A stretch of 30,812 bases of DNA, taken from positions 585,500 through 616,311 of the forward strand of contig NW_003121911.1 in assembly GCF_000003605.2 (NCBI RefSeq), written 5' to 3'. This DNA is from Saccoglossus kowalevskii (lineage: Eukaryota > Hemichordata > Enteropneusta > Harrimaniidae). The notes below the pieces were generated by a model. The model searched no databases. It was not told where the DNA came from and worked only from the letters and a program-made list of their open reading frames with translations. This document shows positions 259 to 30,812 of this stretch, in pieces. Every line of letters starts with the position of its first letter. Position 1 is the stretch's first letter. A program made the translations under genes and the position numbers.

Positions 259-396
259 GAGTCAATGGAAATGTGATCATGCTAGGCAGTTACATCACCA
301 TTTTTGGGACACTTTCCCGCGATATTTATGGCGTATGTGAAACCTAACCAACCTAACTTGTTGACAAGAAAGTACGAACTTGAACTCGGCTCAGAA
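259..396 (+). repeat. Decayed upstream copy of the cytokine promoter and leader
   Basis: GAGTCAATGGAAATG, TTACATCACCATT, GGxCACTTTxCC and (further on) GACAAGAAAGTAxxAACT recur in the same order at about 1141-1275. The two stretches are clearly related although diverged, with an offset of about 880 bp. The TATAAA is not preserved in the upstream copy. This suggests a local duplication of the promoter, or of an upstream paralogue that was lost. Confidence 0.55.
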
Positions 397-1139
397 CTGT
401 CCGCAATGAGGCAATGTTGACTAGTAATCAACAGGTGTTCTCTGCACGTAATGTGACGATTCAAATACTTGGGGTCATATTTATGTCTTGAATATTATTT
501 CAGGGTAGACGCGGCATGTTTACGGACAATTTAGAAACATTACACATTATCGATATTTCCAGTGAGATGTTCCATTCAATAAATTGAAAGGAACAAATAA
601 GAATAAGGGATGTCCTAGCTTGTGATTTGTGACTTTGTCATAGCGCTGAGCAATACTGTTAAAGTGATCAGCATGTAAACAACTGGTCATGAGATTCGTA
701 ATGCAGAAACAAGTTCAGCTACTCCGAGCAGTTTTTTTCAGTGACTTTCTAATCACCAGCCACGCGATGCCGGGAAACCATTAACAACATTTCAGGAAAC
801 TCCTGTGCCTGGGTGTGTGAGCCGAGTTCGTTCTTAAATCAAGTTATTCACCGGTGCGTTCACTGCAACCCACGTCTTTAAAACGAGGGCTTTAAATTTA
901 CCGGGCGGGAATTTTCGACTACTATATACTGACTATTCAAGTACGCCACGCAATGACAACACGGCGTTGATATTTTGGTTTGTCCTAAAGATATTGTGAC
1001 AAAATTTCCCCGTTCTAATATATTAAACAGTGTCGCCATGACGATGTCACACTAACTTTTACATAATAACATATCTATTATGATATATTTTTGATATTTT
1101 TAGACAAGCGGAATAGGATATCCTGTGAGTAGGATAGCG
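397..1139. other. Non-coding 5' flank of the cytokine-like gene
   Basis: AT-rich, with stops in all frames. I see no exon with good splice sites. Positions 1-258 are likewise featureless to my reading. Confidence 0.5.
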
Positions 1140-1208: not shown

Positions 1209-1247
1209 TATATAAAAACCTTGGTCAGTATGTGTAAAATATTGTCA
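1209..1247 (+). promoter_or_regulatory. TATA-box core promoter of the cytokine-like gene
   Basis: TATATAAAA at 1209-1217. An initiator-like TCAGTC lies around 1245-1250, roughly 35 bp downstream, which suggests transcription starts near 1247 and a 5' leader of about 75 nt before the ATG at 1321. Confidence 0.55.
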
Positions 1248-1320: not shown

Positions 1321-1336
1321 ATGACTACATTTCAAG
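1321..1336 (+). CDS. Cytokine-like gene, coding exon 1 (start of signal peptide)
   Basis: ATG ACT ACA TTT CAA G followed at once by the consensus donor GTGAGT. Position -3 is A (GAAAATGA). Five codons plus one base give a phase 1 intron. It sits about 75 nt downstream of the expected transcription start set by the TATA box, so it fits a first coding exon. Confidence 0.6.
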
Positions 1337-3584
1337 GTGAGTAAAACATCGACTCGCGTTATTTTTGTGTTCAAAGAGCTTGTTATAGTGGGCAGTTTGT
1401 GTAATAAGTGCAGATAAAATACATTATTCCTATTTGTGCATCGACTCTCGTTCACAGTTGATAAAAACATATATTTAACTTTTTGAGCGCCATGATCGGG
1501 TTGCCTCGTCAACTTGAGTCGGTGCACCATTTTCCATGTATTGTTAATTTATTTGATAATTTTTAACCAAATGGACATACTTTCCTACTGGCTACATTAA
1601 TTTCATAACAAATTTAGAAACAAATATGTGAGAAAAAATTATTGGGGTGAATTTGGCACGAGAATATGTGTTCGTGTTATTTATCTACTCGGTTTCTGTG
1701 TTTATGTTTTACATAAATGTTGTACAAACTTTTATTTTGAAGATTCGCTGCTACGTGTCACTTGCTATATCCTAGTAGTCATGACGTCACAAACAATCGG
1801 CACGCCCATCGTCACACCGACGCTGTTACCATCGAGCTGTGGTGAGACCTGTGAAACGCTTGGCTTGTTGGGACAGGCAGGACATACCCTAAAGACCTAC
1901 GGAGTTTTGACCTGGCAGAAACATGTACGTATTAAAAACGTAAGTCACCATGACAATTAATGACGTTGAGAAATCCATTGATTTAGGGAGATCTAATGTG
2001 AATAAAATATAGTCTCATTAACGTCATATTGGCTTGACGGATGACTTTCTAAATTCAGAGACTGACTGAGACTCCTCGTGATTTGTCGTATACAATTTTA
2101 CAATTCGATACGATAGCGGAAATACCATGATGAACTTGTTCACGGCGGCATACAAAGAGCGGTGCGATTACCGCTAGATTATAAGGGGTGCTGCTCTACA
2201 CTAAGTCAACACGTTTGAGTATAAATCATGAAGACAGTTCAGTTTACTGTAGTGGCCATAACATACCAGAAGTGTGTTAAAACAGCCGGCAAGTTTGTAC
2301 AAGATCTAACAATACAGCGTACAGCATTTCATTCAGTTGACACGATCTAAAAACCCGTGGCTTCGTGACGCCAAAAATAGAACATTTTCCAGGAAACTAC
2401 GTCCACTCAGTTTTTCTTTTGATGTTTACCTACTTACGTGGTTAATAAAGAGTGCTACATTCACTACAGCCTCGCTGAATAATAACAACACAAAGCTAAT
2501 TCAATTACTCCGCTTTCTATGTTTAGCAAGAACAGAGACCGGAGACTGTAGGCTACAACTTCGAACTGCCGTCGTTGCCCCGCATTACTCCGCCTTTTAT
2601 TCGCCGTCGCTGGTCGGTAAGTATTATATCTGCAGTATTTGCATTACGGTTACTGACACTATCGGGTAGTACACGATATACGATGACATTACCACGTGAC
2701 CTGAAAATCAGGGCAGTTTTGGATAACGAATTAGCGTACCACATTCCATTTGTTTTGAAATTATAGTGATTTTGTTTAAATTCTAGAATGGAAAGTGTAC
2801 ATTATCATTATACATATTGAAAGTCCCAGCAATGAAACCGATTCAGTCACGCCGATACCTTGAATTCCGTCTTCAATCTAAGCTAAAATTAGTCTGGTAT
2901 CATAGTAAATAAAACAACATATAGAGGGGATTACATTCATACCATTATGAGTCCTATTTCGCTGTAATGTGAAACCGTTAGTCCATTTTTCAGAGGATGT
3001 CTGCTTTATAATTTTATAATTTGTTCGTGTGATTTAACAGGAAGTTGACATACTCGTGTACCACAAGGAGAGTTTGGAGTCATACAGAGAACATTTCGTG
3101 CAATTAAAAGAAGAGGAATATCTTGCAATCCCAAGTTTTCATGATGATTTCCGGAACATGACGTTTTTGTGTGACAGAACTATCACAAAAGTCAGATCAG
3201 CGGTAAGTATATATTTGCTAGCCATATGTGTATGATAACAGTAGACGGTGTGTTGACATCGTTCAATGGCGACTGACAACCACGATGTAATTTTCCGCTG
3301 ACAATGTTTGCGTGTGTTATTAATGAATAACAGGACATTCGAACACGCACATGTACGATCGTGCATTTTAATAACTCAATGTCATAATTTTTCAGTTATG
3401 TGTACATGAGTTCGATGACAGTCCACCTACCCAAATCGATCTTGAAGAGATTGAAAGCGATGACCTCCGATTCTGGAGACAACGGAAAGTTCTGAAGACT
3501 TTCATTGACTACGTCGCTGGTGTACAGCAGGATGCAGAACGAATCCGTTTCGAGGTTCACATGTGTCCTTTCCCTGGCAACTAA
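1321..3584 (+). CDS. Predicted secreted IL-6/CNTF-family-like class I helical cytokine, five exons
   Basis: Joined exons 1321-1336, 1743-1939, 2527-2616, 3041-3202 and 3396-3584 give 654 nt, or 217 residues plus TAA. Seen: every junction has GT-AG with strong donors (GTGAGT, then GTAAGT three times), and phases are 1,0,0,0. The predicted protein has a signal peptide (about residues 1-25, hydrophobic core VTCYILVVM), a helix A candidate (40-66), a proline-rich AB loop (72-101, with NFELPSLPRITPP), helix B (103-129), helix C (133-161) and helix D (177-208). Mature cysteines are 38, 42, 145, 157 and 212, and there is one N-glycosylation sequon at Asn140-Met-Thr. Known: IL-6-family cytokines are about 200-225 residues, act outside the cell on gp130/LIFR-type receptors and signal through JAK-STAT. 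Inferred: the helix B to D pattern and the loop resemble CNTF, CLCF1 and cardiotrophin-1. The LIFR-site FxxK motif is not clearly kept; helix D begins LRFWRQRK. The least certain point is the acceptor of exon 2. Alternative: an unrelated four-helix secreted protein. Confidence 0.72.
1743..1939 (+). CDS. Cytokine-like gene, exon 2 (signal peptide and helix A)
   Basis: The acceptor TTTTATTTTGAAG ends at 1742. This gives the phase needed by exon 1 (G+AT = Asp6) and yields a hydrophobic signal sequence. The exon then encodes CGETC and an amphipathic run (GLLGQAGHTLKTYGVLTWQK) typical of helix A. It ends AAC|GTAAGT at 1939, phase 0. A CTAG acceptor at 1774 is also in phase but would remove the signal-peptide core, so I prefer 1743. 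Confidence 0.65.
2527..2616 (+). CDS. Cytokine-like gene, exon 3 (AB loop)
   Basis: Thirty codons between a TTTAG acceptor and TCG|GTAAGT, phase 0 on both sides. It encodes a proline-rich, helix-poor segment (residues 72-101) ending FIRRRWS. In human IL6, exon 3 likewise encodes the AB loop. The segment GYNFELPSLPRITPP resembles the loop of cardiotrophin-1 and CLCF1, by my recollection of those families. Confidence 0.65.
3041..3202 (+). CDS. Cytokine-like gene, exon 4 (helix B and start of helix C)
   Basis: Fifty-four codons from GATTTAACAG|GAA to GCG|GTAAGT, phase 0 both sides. It begins EVDILVYHKESLESYREHF and continues to a helix C start at SFHDDFRNMTFLCDRTI. It carries the only N-glycosylation sequon (NMT). 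The pattern of an acidic helix B, a short turn with proline, then FHxDF is like CNTF (GDFHQAI). Confidence 0.8.
3396..3584 (+). CDS. Cytokine-like gene, exon 5 (end of helix C, CD loop, helix D)
   Basis: Acceptor TAATTTTTCAG at 3395, then 62 codons and TAA at 3582-3584. After LCVHEF comes an acidic loop (DDSPPTQIDLEEIESDD) and a long amphipathic helix, RFWRQRKVLKTFIDYVAGVQ and onward. It aligns by eye with helix D of CNTF and cardiotrophin-1 (KVL...W/Y...D). A short tail, HMCPFPGN, ends the protein. Confidence 0.8.
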   Translation, partial: LCVHEFDDSPPTQIDLEEIESDDLRFWRQRKVLKTFIDYVAGVQQDAERIRFEVHMCPFPGN

Positions 3585-3717: not shown

Positions 3718-3842
3718 ACTTCTCGAATAAAGACCCATTCTCTTCCGTCTCCGCACCCACTGCTTCATTGACCAATGTCATCATTATCTTTTGAACAGTG
3801 AACGTGTTGGCATGGGAGAAGAACAAAAGTCTCGCGGCTCTC
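3718..3842 (-). CDS. Possible antisense exon, unidentified
   Basis: On the minus strand a TTTTGCTCAG acceptor near 3843 opens a frame that reads about 40 codons (SVRAARLLFFSHANTF, then VQKIMMTLVNEAVGAETEE). It ends at a GAGAA|GTAAGT donor near 3719. The composition looks protein-like. It overlaps the 3' untranslated region of the cytokine-like gene and I see no partner exons on the minus strand nearby. It could be chance, a relic, or an exon of an overlapping gene. I do not recognise the family. Confidence 0.2.
3726..3731 (+). terminator. Polyadenylation signal AATAAA of the cytokine-like gene
   Basis: The first AATAAA after the stop at 3584, giving a 3' untranslated region of about 165 nt. 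A pyrimidine-rich stretch follows. Confidence 0.5.
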
Positions 3843-5180: not shown

Positions 5181-5442
5181 TTATAGTTTAGAATCCGGGA
5201 AGCGCTCTTCCAACCATTCACAAAGTTCATCTGTCATTAATTTTTCTGGTTCTTCTAACTGAATTAGTATACTCCTTCCTACATACGCAATCTTTCCCTT
5301 TTCAATTACATATACACGATCTGGAGAGGCAGCGTAACCAACCGAGAAATCATCCTCCATGTTGTCCACCACTACACGACATTTATTCAGACTCTCAATG
5401 TCGGACGTCAGAATATTAAATTTGTCCATTTTGATAAGCGAT
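5181..5442 (-). CDS. DIO: Deiodinase-like gene, exon 4 (C-terminus)
   Basis: Acceptor TTATTTTCAG. One base completes Arg211, then 86 codons and TAA at 5183-5181. Contains VVVDNMEDDFSVGYAASPDR and a beta-hairpin, VYVIEKGKIAYVG, which match the end of the thioredoxin-like fold of deiodinases. The C-terminus is acidic and helical. Confidence 0.9.
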
Positions 5443-7390
5443 CTGAAAATAATGAGGAAAAAACACACAATTACACTGGCCCGGGGACTGAAATTAACTT
5501 GGTTTATACTAATCAGGGTCGTCGTACGATGGTTTCCCAGGGTGGCATTGTAAATAAACTGCACCACAGTTTGTACCAATCCCGATAAGTTATAACAATC
5601 CACATGTCGTATTATAAGAATAGCGAGGTTTTGTTCGATGGTCACTGATTACAACTATGCCCCCCCCCCATGACAGTGAATGCTTACCTGGCAGCTGCCA
5701 GTCTGTCTTCCAGCGTTCTGTGATTTTCAATGAAACTAAAATGCGATCCCATTCTCCATCCGTCTTTAGGATGAGCTTCTCTGATGTAAACAAATATAAA
5801 CTCTACTTTTTCTTTGTACCGATGCAACAGTACAGACAAGCCATCGCTGTGTACGATAGCCTAGCAACGATAAATATGATGAATAAATTAAGAGTTAAGA
5901 TTCATTTTTGATTAAAAAATAATTAGTAAAAGGTTTAATTTAACGTTTTCTTGCCTGGTAACTTACCCGAAGTGGAGGTCAGGATAAGGAACCTGCAATC
6001 ACCACGAGAGGTCTTTCTTTGTTCATCCAGAGATTTTCCATTTGTATTATTTGTTGCGTTTCTATGGATACCAAACCAACATTTGGTGCTATGTCGCCAG
6101 GATCAAGTTCAGAAGCTGTCACAGGGGGTCCAGTGTCCATCAACATTTCAATTATGCCCATTACCTGAAAGCAATACGCACATGTATAACATATAATGTA
6201 TGTTAGAGTATACGATTATCACGGAATCGTTTGGTTTCGGGCTTCATGATGGATGAACGTTACTCGAATATATACCGTGTATAATAATATATTTTTAGAA
6301 GAATGTCATAGAACACTAAACCAAATCGAGAATAATTTATAAAGCTAACCACACCTTTTATTAACACTAGAGGTGTATAATATTTTCAAAATAAAATTGA
6401 GCCGTTACAGTTCTGATATATATATTGCGCTGAGTATGTGTTGGTTGCTTCTCGCTCAGGTAAGAAATATCTCCGCTGTACACATTTTTTTTTCAATTTG
6501 AGAAACAAGTCCAGCACGCTGATGAATTGAATACATAAATTTGATGTAGAAAATAATTACAATTCAGAATAGCGTATTAAATGAAAATCACTTTAGGTGA
6601 ACATGATAAAGCTGCCCTTTTTGAGCTGCACAAAGAGGAAGCCGTCTTATCCGGAGTCAAAAATATCTTCACTTTTTACCAAAAATGACAAAATATTCAT
6701 CCACACTAATGAATTGAACATATCGTCACAAAAGACAACTCAATATATGCTGAACATCAAAACAATTAGACTTAGTATGACGTTTTATCAAAAATGACAA
6801 AACTATTCGTCAACATTAGAGAACTGAAGATATTGTTACAAAATGAACAAATCAGAGACAGGTCAACCTGAGATACCTATATATGTTTAGTACCGAAGCA
6901 ATTAGGTTACTAGTATAAAAAATGACAAAACATATTTTTCACAATTAGAGAATTAAGGATATCATCACGGAATTAACAAATATTATAAAAAAAGATGTAC
7001 ATTTGTCGTGAGTATGAAACCCATATAGCTGGCCGTTTTTAAGAGGAAGTTGGCCACGAACATGTATCTAAAGACCATAGACGGCGCCCTCTTTAGGCGT
7101 ATTTTTTTTAAAACAATGTGCCATGTTACCTCCTGATCGGCACCATATAGTGATAAAATGTGGACCATAAATGGCATCTCTAGCACACCAGGATCCACGC
7201 CGTTCTCCAGCAAGCACTGACGTTCAACGCGTCTGATAATTTTCTTATTCGTCTTGACCAACATTTTCGGATTTACTTCCGGATTCATCATCCTGTCATA
7301 TTTTTCTAGCGTGTCCGCTTCGTGCAAAATCTCCACAAATCGGCGGAGAATTTTCAATACAAGCGGCCGATCGTTAAAAGGTTCTGCCAT
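5181..7390 (-). CDS. DIO: Iodothyronine deiodinase-like selenoprotein, four exons
   Basis: Minus-strand exons 7390-7130, 6164-5967, 5860-5688 and 5442-5181 give 894 nt, 297 residues with one in-frame TGA at 5981-5979 (residue 149). Known: deiodinases are thioredoxin-fold selenoenzymes that remove iodine from thyroid hormones. Seen: ERPLVVIAGSLS-TGA-PPLR matches the family core RPLxxxxGSxxU-PP. YIREAHPKDGW (178-188) holds the conserved Glu-Ala-His. FIENHRTLEDRLAAA (196-210), VVVDNMED and YAASPDRVYVIEKGKIAYVG are further family blocks. Reading stops at TGA would break a conserved domain that continues in the same frame across two more exons, so TGA is best read as selenocysteine. Odd: no hydrophobic N-terminal anchor is visible, and the Cys two before Sec in DIO1/DIO3 is Leu. 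The substrate is unknown. The start ATG has a good context (GAAGATGG), but a T-rich tract ending GGAG sits just upstream, so an earlier exon is possible. Confidence 0.88.
5688..5860 (-). CDS. DIO: Deiodinase-like gene, exon 3
   Basis: From GTTGCTAG|GCT to GCCAG|GTAAGC, phase 0 in and phase 2 out. Encodes LLHRYKEKVEFIFVYIREAH and the FIENHRTLEDRLAAA block. The spacing from Sec to the YIREAH tyrosine is 29 residues, two more than in vertebrate DIO1 and DIO3 as I recall them. Confidence 0.9.
5967..6164 (-). CDS. DIO: Deiodinase-like gene, exon 2 with Sec (TGA) codon
   Basis: Starts after TTGCTTTCAG with GTA ATG, and ends CGG|GTAAGT, phase 0 both sides, 66 codons. Contains PGDIAPNVGLVSIE, which matches the (G)xLAPN block before the active site in deiodinases. 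It then has the active-site motif with TGA at 5981-5979. Five codons (TGA CCT CCA CTT CGG) continue in frame before the donor. Confidence 0.9.
6676..6985. repeat. Diverged tandem repeat in deiodinase intron 1
   Basis: Three related blocks begin with AAAAATGACA at 6681, 6790 and 6918. Each is followed by an AC(T)ATT...ACTAATGAATTGAA-like or ACATTAGAGAACTGAA-like stretch. Spacing is 109 and 128 bp, so the copies have drifted and gained indels. Confidence 0.55.
7130..7390 (-). CDS. DIO: Deiodinase-like gene, exon 1
   Basis: Eighty-seven codons starting MAEPFNDRPLVLKILRRFVE and ending YGADQE|GTAACA, phase 0. Charged and helical, with no convincing membrane segment. This is the least family-like part of the protein. 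Confidence 0.7.
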
Positions 7391-7399
7391 CTTCTCCAA

Positions 7400-7835
7400 A
7401 AAAAAAGAACATGTTATCGCATGTATAATATGAGTTTTACCAATCCAACATTGTTGTTACATTAGCATCCCATATTAGTCGGCGTTGGGTATGAACATAC
7501 ATTATTGTACATGTAAATGTTATGTTTTATGATTTATTTGTATCCAGACATGAAATAGTATGTTTGTTTATGGGGATACAAATGATGAGATCAGAAAGCC
7601 TATCATCTGTCCCTCCTTATCCCCAGTCCTCCCAAGGCAAATACAAGTGACTGTTCCCTTATCACTGTCACGATTGCTGTGTTTCTCCGTAATATACTTT
7701 TGATAACGACAATCACAAGGACGGGGTGGCCTCAAAGTGACCCTGGTCAGACTGCATACATCTCTATCAGTCTGAACTAGGCACTTTGTTGTATGACAAA
7801 GCGTATCCTTCAAAATACAATGAATCATTTGGTGT
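7400..7835. other. 5' flank of the deiodinase gene, no assigned gene
   Basis: A minus-strand open stretch at about 7570-7830 is Cys-rich, with segments such as VTCICLGRTGDKEG. It has no clear start, splice sites or family. I treat it as unassigned sequence. Confidence 0.35.
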
Positions 7836-23565: not shown

Positions 23566-23677
<112 letters not shown>

Positions 23678-25431: not shown

Positions 25432-25581
<150 letters not shown>

Positions 25582-25589
25582 GACAGCTA

Positions 25590-27540
25590 TAGATTAAAAT
25601 TGTTAATTTATAATTTATTTGAAAACAACAACAATTAGTAACAGAAATATACGCGAAAGTGTAGAAACAGGACATCGTAAAGAGAAAGAAGACTATAGGT
25701 ACTGAAAACAAACGTGACGTTCAATCCCAGGTAACAAATACGATAATTTTGTTATTATGTTTGAATCACACAGTGTCAGTAACATATGAAACGACTAATC
25801 GGTATAACATGAGTCCCTCCCTGCATACCCTGGCTGAATGGTCAGTTCTATTCGATATGACCATCATCATAGCAGTACACCACTGCCGACTGATGTGATT
25901 GTTGAATATTACATGCGTGTATCGATTCGATCTCAGCATCTCCGCCACTTTGCAATGACCATGAACAGGAACTTTGATTAACCATTATGATGACAAATTT
26001 TGTTGAGCAAGTAACGACTGAATTATTTGATTACAAAAGATATTTCCATTCATAACTTTCTCAGCGGAGATCCTTTTTCAATAAATGCTTTGTTCGTGTC
26101 AGAGACGATAACATCAGTACCGTCCGTGCGTGTGCCAACTCCCACTGCCTTCAGCTTCCAAATTGAACTAAAGGCATCGATATATACTACCCATTTACGC
26201 GGAAAATAACACCAATATTTTTTTTTCTCATCAACTCCGAAAATTCAAGACAAATGAAGTGAGAATTAGTGTTCACTGGCCAATAAAGAGTTCACATTGC
26301 TAAAAAGGAAATTATTGCTTCCCAATCAAGAGGACACCCGACAGCGAATTAGAATTACTGACGTGGTAGTTTTTGTGCTTTATATTTACACAAATATACA
26401 TCAAAAGATTAATAGAAAGTGAAGTTCCGTTTGCATCATAAAATGTTGCCACCATGTGGGCAAAACTAATTTCGCCAAAACAGGTTTGATTATGACTTAT
26501 TTCATAGCGGTCCTCTGCTAAGCCGTATCATTAGCTGTGTTCTGGTAAAGTCGGAATAGGAACTCAATTTAGCAGTTTATTAAGACATTATGAACATACT
26601 GTTATATGATGGCAAAAATTCATCAATATCTTTAAAAAGCCGTGCATAACGAGCTCTGAGTGGATCGGAAACGCGGCATATATGTCCTCCTTATTAGAGT
26701 TTATTACTTAAGACAAACAACATGGAGAGGAAATATAGAAAAACCAATGAAAGCCCATGGGTTACCAAATTATTAGTAATTAATCTTTCGTCGCGATATT
26801 AGTTCGCTGAATATTACTCTCAGCGGCGACTGAAAGATAAACCATCCGGGGTAGCAGGGTTCCTATGGAAACTCATTAAAAAATAAAGTCGTAAAAAGTG
26901 ATGTTATTTCGCGGTGATTTGATGCGTGAGAGCACGCCAATAATGTTCATTTAGTTTTATGGATTTCTGTTTCTCTCTTCCGGAAAATAAGCCGAAAGGA
27001 TTTTTTACACTCAGTATTCATTGGCGAGAATGAATGGTGAGAAACTGTAATGACGACTTTCCTATATAGAATGGATATATACCCAGCGAGACGTACCACT
27101 GGGTCTTTGTCCAGACCATCGATATCATGAATTTCGTATAATATTAAAACATATCGCGTGACTCTTTCAATTCCTGTATCAATTTGTGTCGTTATATGGG
27201 GTACACGCTATAGGGGACTTTATTATGTCGTTTCAAGTTGTAACCTAAAACAACCGAAACAACTGATTTATTGTTTGTTCTCGCCTACTCTTTTTGTATA
27301 ATGTTTAAATCATTGCCGAGCGAAAAGAAAGAAGTAGAAAAAAAAACAATTCTATCGATTTAGTGCCATTAAGCAAATAGATTGGTGTTATTGTATTAGG
27401 GTCAAACAAATGCACGTACAAATGATATTCTGAAATTGTGCACGCTTCAGAGCGACCCGGCACAGTATACGGTGGTGTACATTCATCCACGGTGTAACGT
27501 AATTGTGTCTTCTGCAGACTTAGTCGAATTTACTGAGAAA
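25590..27540. other. Mostly non-coding
   Basis: A segment at about 26,060-26,200 is open on both strands, with protein-like reading on the minus strand (LKAVGVGTRTDGTDVIVSDT). No splice or start support makes it more than a curiosity. Confidence 0.3.
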
Positions 27541-29689: not shown

Positions 29690-30812
29690 TATCGCTTCAT
29701 GTGGTCCATGAAGTATTGCAATAAGTCACTGGAGATATAGAAATATATTGATGTAACACCACATTATGTGGTTCATGATGTATTGATTATTGATTGGTGT
29801 CTATGATGTATTGATGTAACATTACTCCATGGTGTCCATAATGTATTTATTTTACATCACGCCATGGTGTATATGATGTGTTGAAGTAACATCACTCCAT
29901 GAGGTACATGATGTATTGATTTTACATCGCTCCATGGTGTCCATGATGTATTGATGTAACATCATTCAATGGGGTCATTGATGCATTGATGTAACATCAC
30001 TCCATGGGGTCCATGATGCATTGATGTAACATCACTCCATGGTGTCTATGATGTATTGATGTAACATCACTCTATGGGATCCATGATGTATTGATTTTAC
30101 ATCACTCCATGGTGTCTATGATGTATTGATGTAACATCACTCTATGGGGTCCATGATGTATTCATGTAACGTCACTCCATGGGGTTCATGATGTTTTAAT
30201 GTAGCAGGACTCTGTGGGGTTCACGGTGTATTGATGTAACATCACTATGTAGGGTTCATGACGTATTGATGTAACATCACTCCGTGGGGTTCATGATGTA
30301 TTGATGTAACATCACTCCATGGGGTGCATGATGTATTGATGTAACATCACTCTATGGGGTCCATGATGTATTGATGTAACATCACTCTATGGGGTCCATG
30401 ATGTATTCATGTAACATCAATCCATGGGGTTCATGATGTATTGATGTAACATCACTCTGTGGGGTCCATGACGTATTGATGTAACATCACTCCATGGGGT
30501 TCATGATGTATTGATGTAACGTCACTCTGTAGAGTTCATGATGTATTGATGTAGCAGGACTATGTGGGGTTCATGGTGTAATGATGTAACATCACTCTGT
30601 GGGGTTCATGATGTATTGATGTAACATCACTCCGTGGGGTTCATGATGTATTGATGTAACATCACTCTATGGGGTCCATGATTTATTGATGTAACATCAC
30701 TATATGGGGTTCATAATGTATTGATGTAACATCACTCCATGGGGTTCACGATGTATTGATGTAACATCAATATATGGAGTTCATAATGTATTGATGTAAC
30801 ATCACTTCATGA
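29690..30812. repeat. Minisatellite, 35-bp unit, runs off the right edge
   Basis: About 32 copies of a 35-bp unit (CATGATGTATTGATGTAACA followed by TCACTCCATGGGGTT). Copies near 29,700-29,850 are degenerate and those further right more uniform, so the array edge is on the left and the array continues beyond the window. Each unit holds three palindromes: TCATGA, GATGT-A-ACATC and CCATGG. Rare variant units recur 350 bp apart, showing a 10-unit higher-order repeat. Confidence 0.95.

Follow-up and report, generated by a model that had tools for sequence, protein, structure and literature searches.

Does a genome that does not look like that of a vertebrate carry a gene for a helical cytokine of the interleukin-6 (IL-6) kind? 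The question arises at positions 1321..3584 on the forward strand of a 30,812-nucleotide stretch of DNA (positions 585,500 to 616,311 of contig NW_003121911.1; this whole stretch is called the window here). A first-pass annotation, made from the letters alone, had described five exons there that encode a secreted four-helix protein resembling CNTF. The gene model proved to be far beyond chance, and we take the predicted gene to be real. Our preferred reading, to which we give a probability of roughly 55%, is that it is a functional non-vertebrate gene whose product is a secreted helical cytokine of the class I long-chain type, with some 190 residues in its mature form. The assignment rests on the organization of the gene, on exon-anchored alignment and on a helix B block that fits best at Trp100. 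A clear placement beside CNTF and CLCF1 did not hold up.

A five-exon gene

The coding part of exon 1 (1321..1336, + strand, as are all the exons) is 16 nucleotides (nt) long and ends in phase 1 at a GTGAGT donor. Exon 2 (1743..1939, 197 nt) encodes the remainder of the putative signal peptide, Cys38, Cys42 and the presumed helix A, which is weak. Exon 3 (2527..2616, 90 nt) encodes the AB loop, which is rich in proline and whose last residues are Trp100-Ser. Exon 4 (3041..3202, 162 nt) carries the presumed helices B and C, the glycosylation sequon and Cys145; exons 2, 3 and 4 all end in GTAAGT donors. Exon 5 (3396..3584, 189 nt including the stop codon) holds Cys157, the CD loop, the presumed helix D and Cys212. 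The acceptors of the four introns have 9, 11, 8 and 10 pyrimidines in 14 positions.

We rebuilt the joints and obtained one open frame of 654 nt (217 residues) with intron phases 1-0-0-0, so the exons, splice sites and compatible phases of the first-pass annotation stand. The same is true of its five mature cysteines (38, 42, 145, 157 and 212; Cys13 lies in the signal region), its N-glycosylation sequon (a single one, at N140) and its proline-rich AB loop (5 of the 30 residues of exon 3). The putative signal peptide was recognized by eye, from a short hydrophobic stretch at about residues 11–19.

Sequence signals flank the gene on both sides. A TATA box, TATATAAAAA, was read at 1209..1218 (+), which places the expected start site at about 1240–1247, and the first ATG past this site is at 1321. 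An AATAAA polyadenylation signal read at 3726..3731 (+) begins 142 nt past the stop codon. The search for the longest chain favored an ATG at 1230 together with other acceptors. This ATG lies some 20 bases away from the TATA box and upstream of the expected start site; it was therefore set aside, and 1321 was left as the first ATG.

The + strand of 1321–3584 contains only four GTRAGT sequences, and all of them are donors of the candidate gene; the whole window has 14 on the + strand and 13 on the − strand. To measure chance, five-exon chains with GTRAGT donors were sought on the + strand only, in the real window and in dinucleotide-shuffled windows. In the main run, acceptors needed at least 8 pyrimidines in 14, that is, as many as the weakest real acceptor. 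Any five-exon chain was found in 68 of 3000 shuffles, and a chain of at least 654 nt in just one (maximum 762 nt). None of the 3000 had phases 1-0-0-0 together with exon sizes in the cytokine ranges. In this layout test, exons 2 and 5 were allowed up to 200 nt; the bound was chosen to take in the candidate's exon 2 of 197 nt, the longest exon 2 of the five human genes described below being 191 nt. The real window gave chains of up to 870 nt, and 3 of 200 chains had a cytokine-type layout. A stricter acceptor rule (9 of 14) missed the candidate gene itself.

Codon-position base use points the same way. With training on the neighboring deiodinase gene, the predicted frame scored +5.4, as against −28.5 and −34.1 for the other two + frames. 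The bias favored the predicted frame in four of the five exons, the exception being exon 3.

A vertebrate host is very unlikely. The observed/expected ratio of CpG is 1.07 over the window, with values of 0.98 to 1.16 in its parts and a G+C content of about 38%. By general background knowledge vertebrate genomes are strongly depleted in CpG, and the ratio of 1.07 thus indicates a non-vertebrate composition, in agreement with the invertebrate look noted in the first pass.

Layout and alignment of a probable class I cytokine

The coding exons of five human class I cytokine genes measure 19/191/114/147/168 nt (IL6), 40/155/108/147/165 nt (CSF3), 10/161/120/165/198 nt (GH1), 13/146/87/180/156 nt (EPO) and 28/182/108/180/186 nt (PRL). 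Each set adds up to a sum that agrees with the protein length. The candidate, at 16/197/90/162/189 nt, equals these genes in exon number and in phases 1-0-0-0. Four of its exons are within the ranges of these genes, and exon 2 is six nt above. The protein is divided among the exons in a similar manner, if the presumed exon-to-helix division is correct. This agreement in exon number, phases and sizes supports a gene layout of the class I long-chain cytokine type. Five exons are also described for the IL-6 gene (PMC5165036) and for the G-CSF gene of carp, human and mouse (PMC6389648).

When the candidate was aligned exon against exon to human IL6, CSF3, GH1, PRL and EPO, it scored z +2.0 over shuffles (p 0.033). 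Known members, each aligned to three or four of the rest and never to its closest paralogue, gave z 1.5–3.0 (p 0.003–0.073). Among the controls, 3 of the 23 other exon orders gave z −0.4 to −1.0, reversed letters gave +0.5, and the deiodinase exons gave −1.3. The signal sits in exon 5 (p 0.010) and exon 2 (p 0.024). Pairwise, there was a weak match to EPO (p 0.020) and CSF3 (p 0.040). On these figures the candidate appears to behave as a remote class I cytokine relative would in exon-anchored alignment.

Local alignment was run against a panel of ten human cytokines and rat CNTF with two matrices, and the p values are uncorrected. Rat CNTF had the top score under both matrices (p 0.02–0.03), and the values were 0.03–0.12 for human CNTF and 0.04–0.08 for CLCF1. 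The CNTF alignments are in register; they begin in the AB loop or in helix B and extend to the start of helix C.

A helix B block with its best fit at Trp100

A tryptophan at site 1 is conserved in CNTF, CLCF1 and IL-27 p28 and contacts the receptor (PMC10022904). We built a helix B block from these three proteins, starting at this residue. Its optimum in the candidate falls exactly at Trp100 and is matched by 0.9–1.1% of shuffles; these and the other block p values are optimistic, the blocks having been picked after the sequence had been seen. The score of 13.3 is higher than those of all eight of IL6, CSF3, GH1, PRL, EPO, LIF, OSM and CTF1 (−1.7 to 8.0). The candidate shares with CNTF, CLCF1 and IL-27 p28 the W-S-E that closes the AB loop, followed by the helix B block in register. 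By eye and without gaps, 9 of the 24 block residues are identical to human CNTF. The likeness of ESLESYREHF to helix B, proposed in the first pass, fits here, as this segment lies within the CNTF block in register from Trp100 (CNTF Trp64).

For the helix D block, the optimum is at residue 186, the expected place. The candidate has KVL at this position and the same order of segments as CNTF and CLCF1. In addition, Trp182 adjoins the position of FXXK, and IL-6, IL-11 and IL-27 carry a tryptophan at that site.

Observations that weigh against a cytokine

Many of our results count against the preferred reading, beginning with the chance test. When the acceptor rule was relaxed to 6 of 14, 25 of 2000 shuffles reached 654 nt (maximum 1077 nt, the longest chain of the real window then being 1023 nt). 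In the exon-anchored alignment, shuffles that keep the hydrophobicity pattern raised p to 0.087. Exons 3 and 4 had no signal (p 0.35 and 0.76), nor was there a pairwise match to IL6 (p 0.32), GH1 (0.27) or PRL (0.37). The local alignment to CLCF1 is out of register, IL6 and CSF3 scored under the shuffle mean in local alignment, and none of the global alignments with known cytokines was significant.

The four amphipathic helices of the first-pass annotation did not emerge. No exon has a peak helical moment beyond shuffles (p 0.74 for the end of exon 2, presumed helix A; 0.35 for exon 3; 0.26 for exon 4, B and C; 0.14 for exon 5, D). In the same test, values below 0.05 occur in one or more exons of each of five known cytokines. 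The moments of presumed helices C and D are higher than that of A, which contains three glycines and beta-favoring residues. AlphaFold2 models of the exon 4 and exon 2 pieces contained either strands alone or strands with short helices; at mean confidence scores (pLDDT) of 41 and 55 they are uninformative.

Searches for relatives were negative. A Pfam search of the candidate gave no family at E ≤ 10, the single match in the PDB was a peroxiredoxin (E 0.67), and none of 85 candidates from the protein database matched; the same database gave just one match for the deiodinase. With hhalign, the scores against seven family alignments were all inside the shuffle range (13.7 for the CNTF group, where shuffles gave 12.4 ± 2.2). 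Five of eight control pairs of known relatives (11.3–17.0) were likewise in the shuffle range; CSF3 with the CNTF group and IL6 with CSF3 (19–20), and LIF-OSM with the CNTF group (32), were above it. Human CLCF1, CNTF and IL-27 p28, when compared with solved structures at E ≤ 10, likewise matched no cytokine family but their own, and in local alignment most pairs of known members failed to recognize each other. Since several known members thus miss one another, the lack of a database match for the candidate is weak evidence and not disproof.

The late choice of the blocks apart, the block scores have their own difficulties. CNTF, CLCF1 and IL-27 score 27 to 37.5 with the helix B block, well above the 13.3 of the candidate, and of 15499 24-mers in the rest of the window one reaches the same score as the candidate. 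The proposed likeness of KVLKTFIDYV to helix D is retained in its position, but its score of 5.7 is ordinary (p 0.26–0.36) and is exceeded by six of the eight other cytokines. FXXK, the motif of the members that bind LIFR (PMC10022904), is absent from the start of helix D, where FWRQ stands at 181–184.

A clear CNTF/CLCF1 assignment is therefore not upheld: no Pfam family was matched, hhalign stays at shuffle level, the block score is low, FXXK is missing and helix A is weak. CNTF and CLCF1 also have fewer coding exons than the five of the candidate, and the candidate has five cysteines; the published members of the CNTF, CLCF1 and IL-27 p28 group are all from vertebrates. Within the superfamily this group may fit best, but only as a lead. 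We consider it rather unlikely that the gene is a gp130-type (CNTF/CLCF1/IL-27-like) invertebrate ligand gene that keeps an ancestral layout of five exons with phases 1-0-0-0, since lost by CNTF and CLCF1.

Alternative explanations

If the gene is real and its product secreted, the protein could still have another fold. It would then be a lineage-specific protein, and the 1-0-0-0 five-exon structure and the likeness to cytokines would be due to chance. We see this as doubtful though quite possible. It would account for the lack of any profile or credible sequence match, for the absence of an amphipathic peak in every exon, for the ordinary helix D score, and for fragment models, of very low confidence, that do not show a helical bundle. 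It would leave to coincidence the agreement of phases and sizes with five separate cytokine genes, as well as the in-register block at Trp100 and an exon-anchored signal whose controls are negative.

A helical cytokine of class II (the IL-10 and interferon type), which would signal via class II receptors, is improbable as judged by intron phases. Such genes also have about five exons and phase 0 introns, and an extra short first exon of IFNL2/3 ends one base into a codon (PMC2654155). Teleost interferon genes are described with four phase 0 introns (PMC4929537), and IFNL genes have four of them besides the extra one (PMC2654155); the candidate has four introns in all, the first in phase 1, and so departs from the all-phase-0 pattern. 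Least probable of all, and to our mind very improbable, is that there is no gene and that open stretches happen to be joinable. The 25 of 2000 shuffles that reach the length under lax acceptors favor this explanation, yet the figure falls to 1 of 3000 once acceptors have to match the quality of the real ones, and to 0 of 3000 with the layout. All four GTRAGT sequences are used, the frame is biased, and the TATA box and AATAAA are in place.

Proposed architecture and signaling

Under the preferred reading, that of a class I long-chain cytokine, the product would be released, by analogy with its vertebrate relatives, and would fold as an up-up-down-down four-helix bundle. The N-terminal segment with Cys38 and Cys42 may be bridged by disulfides to Cys145 and Cys157 of helix C. 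In LIF, an N-terminal extension is tied to helix C by two disulfides (PMC10022904). In LIF as in the candidate, two cysteines precede helix A and two more lie within or past helix C; unlike LIF, the candidate has another cysteine spacing and lacks both the AB-loop cysteine and FXXK. Trp100, at the end of the AB loop, would be the site 1 receptor contact, and the aromatic patch Phe181-Trp182 at the start of helix D a putative site 3 contact. The ligand would bridge two class I receptor chains (gp130/LIFR/Domeless-type), and JAK-STAT signaling would presumably be switched on via the class I receptor.

The rest of the window

A convergent gene resembling iodothyronine deiodinase occupies 5181..7390 on the − strand, with exons 7390-7130, 6164-5967, 5860-5687 and 5441-5181 and an in-frame TGA at the selenocysteine site. 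It matches Pfam PF00837 (6.8e-35 over residues 107–290) and Dio2/Dio3 in the PDB (about 3e-19). Its residues 1–106 matched no Pfam family, and we take this N-terminal part of 106 residues to be unlike that of the vertebrate enzymes. A search for its selenocysteine insertion sequence gave no Rfam match; five places match the pattern loosely, and the stretch holding the first of them folds no better than shuffles.

Upstream of the candidate gene, 259..383 (+) is a decayed copy of the block 1141–1279, which comprises the promoter and 5' untranslated region (it aligns with a score of 76, and 500 shuffles reached at most 36). The copy sits 882 bases upstream of the candidate's own block. At 798–851 (+) there is a short open stretch, preceded by an acceptor-like AG, in which 7 of 18 residues are like exon 2 around its two cysteines (E 7.2); this may be chance. 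Among the matches listed by a tblastn search of the window with the protein, made for remnants of a paralogue, all those outside its own exons have E 1.0 or worse. The DNA alignment of 384–1140 with the gene is weak (p 0.02 and 0.055, 200 shuffles), and it does not place 798–851 on exon 2. A decayed tandem copy of the gene may lie between the duplicated promoter and the gene. A third promoter copy at 25891–26045 (score 54, null maximum 46 from 300 shuffles of one 500-base stretch) was unconvincing after a window-wide scan and was rejected.

The 22 kb at 7600–29800 have no Pfam domain above cut-off in six frames, with a CpG observed/expected ratio of about 1.0–1.16. Twelve half-window frames of 7.6–29.8 kb were compared with Pfam; a match to TMEM251 (E 0.0068, 17 bits) was rejected as under the 27-bit cut-off, and nothing else was found at E ≤ 0.01. 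Simple repeats are present at 23568–23677, (ACAG)n, and 25433–25581, (TAAA)n, and a 35-base tandem repeat of 29 copies fills 29795–30811, up to the end of the window. At 1–255 (−), an open frame resembles by eye a reverse transcriptase fragment of a long interspersed nuclear element and has no Pfam match at E ≤ 1.

Relation to known ligands and significance

Two surveys place IL-6 family ligands in vertebrates only (PMC13203501, PMC8226699); according to one of the two, receptors of the IL6R type go back to molluscs, and JAK and STAT to sponges. Also named in these surveys are Upd, an IL-CTL ligand and, from the starfish Asterias forbesi, a factor reported to be IL6-like. The BLAST rule given in PMC13203501 (E ≤ 1e-5, identity ≥ 30%) is unlikely to find the candidate gene. 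Amphioxus is described as having a growth hormone (GH)-like cytokine and several divergent genes for type I helical cytokines, and the same source states that acorn worms and sea squirts showed none (PMC9010856). The amphioxus GH-like protein (GHl) is described as a non-vertebrate type I helical cytokine of 208 residues (PMC9010856). An amphioxus host, which would be compatible with the preferred reading and would make the candidate a gene of an already familiar kind there, is rather unlikely. Branchiostoma has a G+C content of about 41%, higher than the 38% or so of the window. The Unpaired proteins of Drosophila are invertebrate ligands of the gp130-like Domeless, and Upd2 has been modeled on leptin (PMC5385356). 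Our search of the open-access literature turned up no other invertebrate gp130-type ligand. Class I receptors do exist in invertebrates (PMC13203501); Domeless is one of them (PMC7378365), and a gp130-like receptor is described from the sea squirt (PMC1963337).

The candidate probably represents a new member of the class I cytokines, and how novel it is depends on the species. If it is real and from outside amphioxus, it would supply a missing ligand and help to trace the ancestral form of the IL-6, EPO and GH-type signals, and it would suggest that exon layout can reveal such ligands where sequence searches fail. Should the gp130-type reading be true, IL-6-type ligands would predate the vertebrates, alongside the known invertebrate receptors of the gp130/Domeless type. 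Confirmation by transcripts and a structure would extend the history of immune and growth signals such as IL-6, erythropoietin and CNTF-like ligands beyond the vertebrates.

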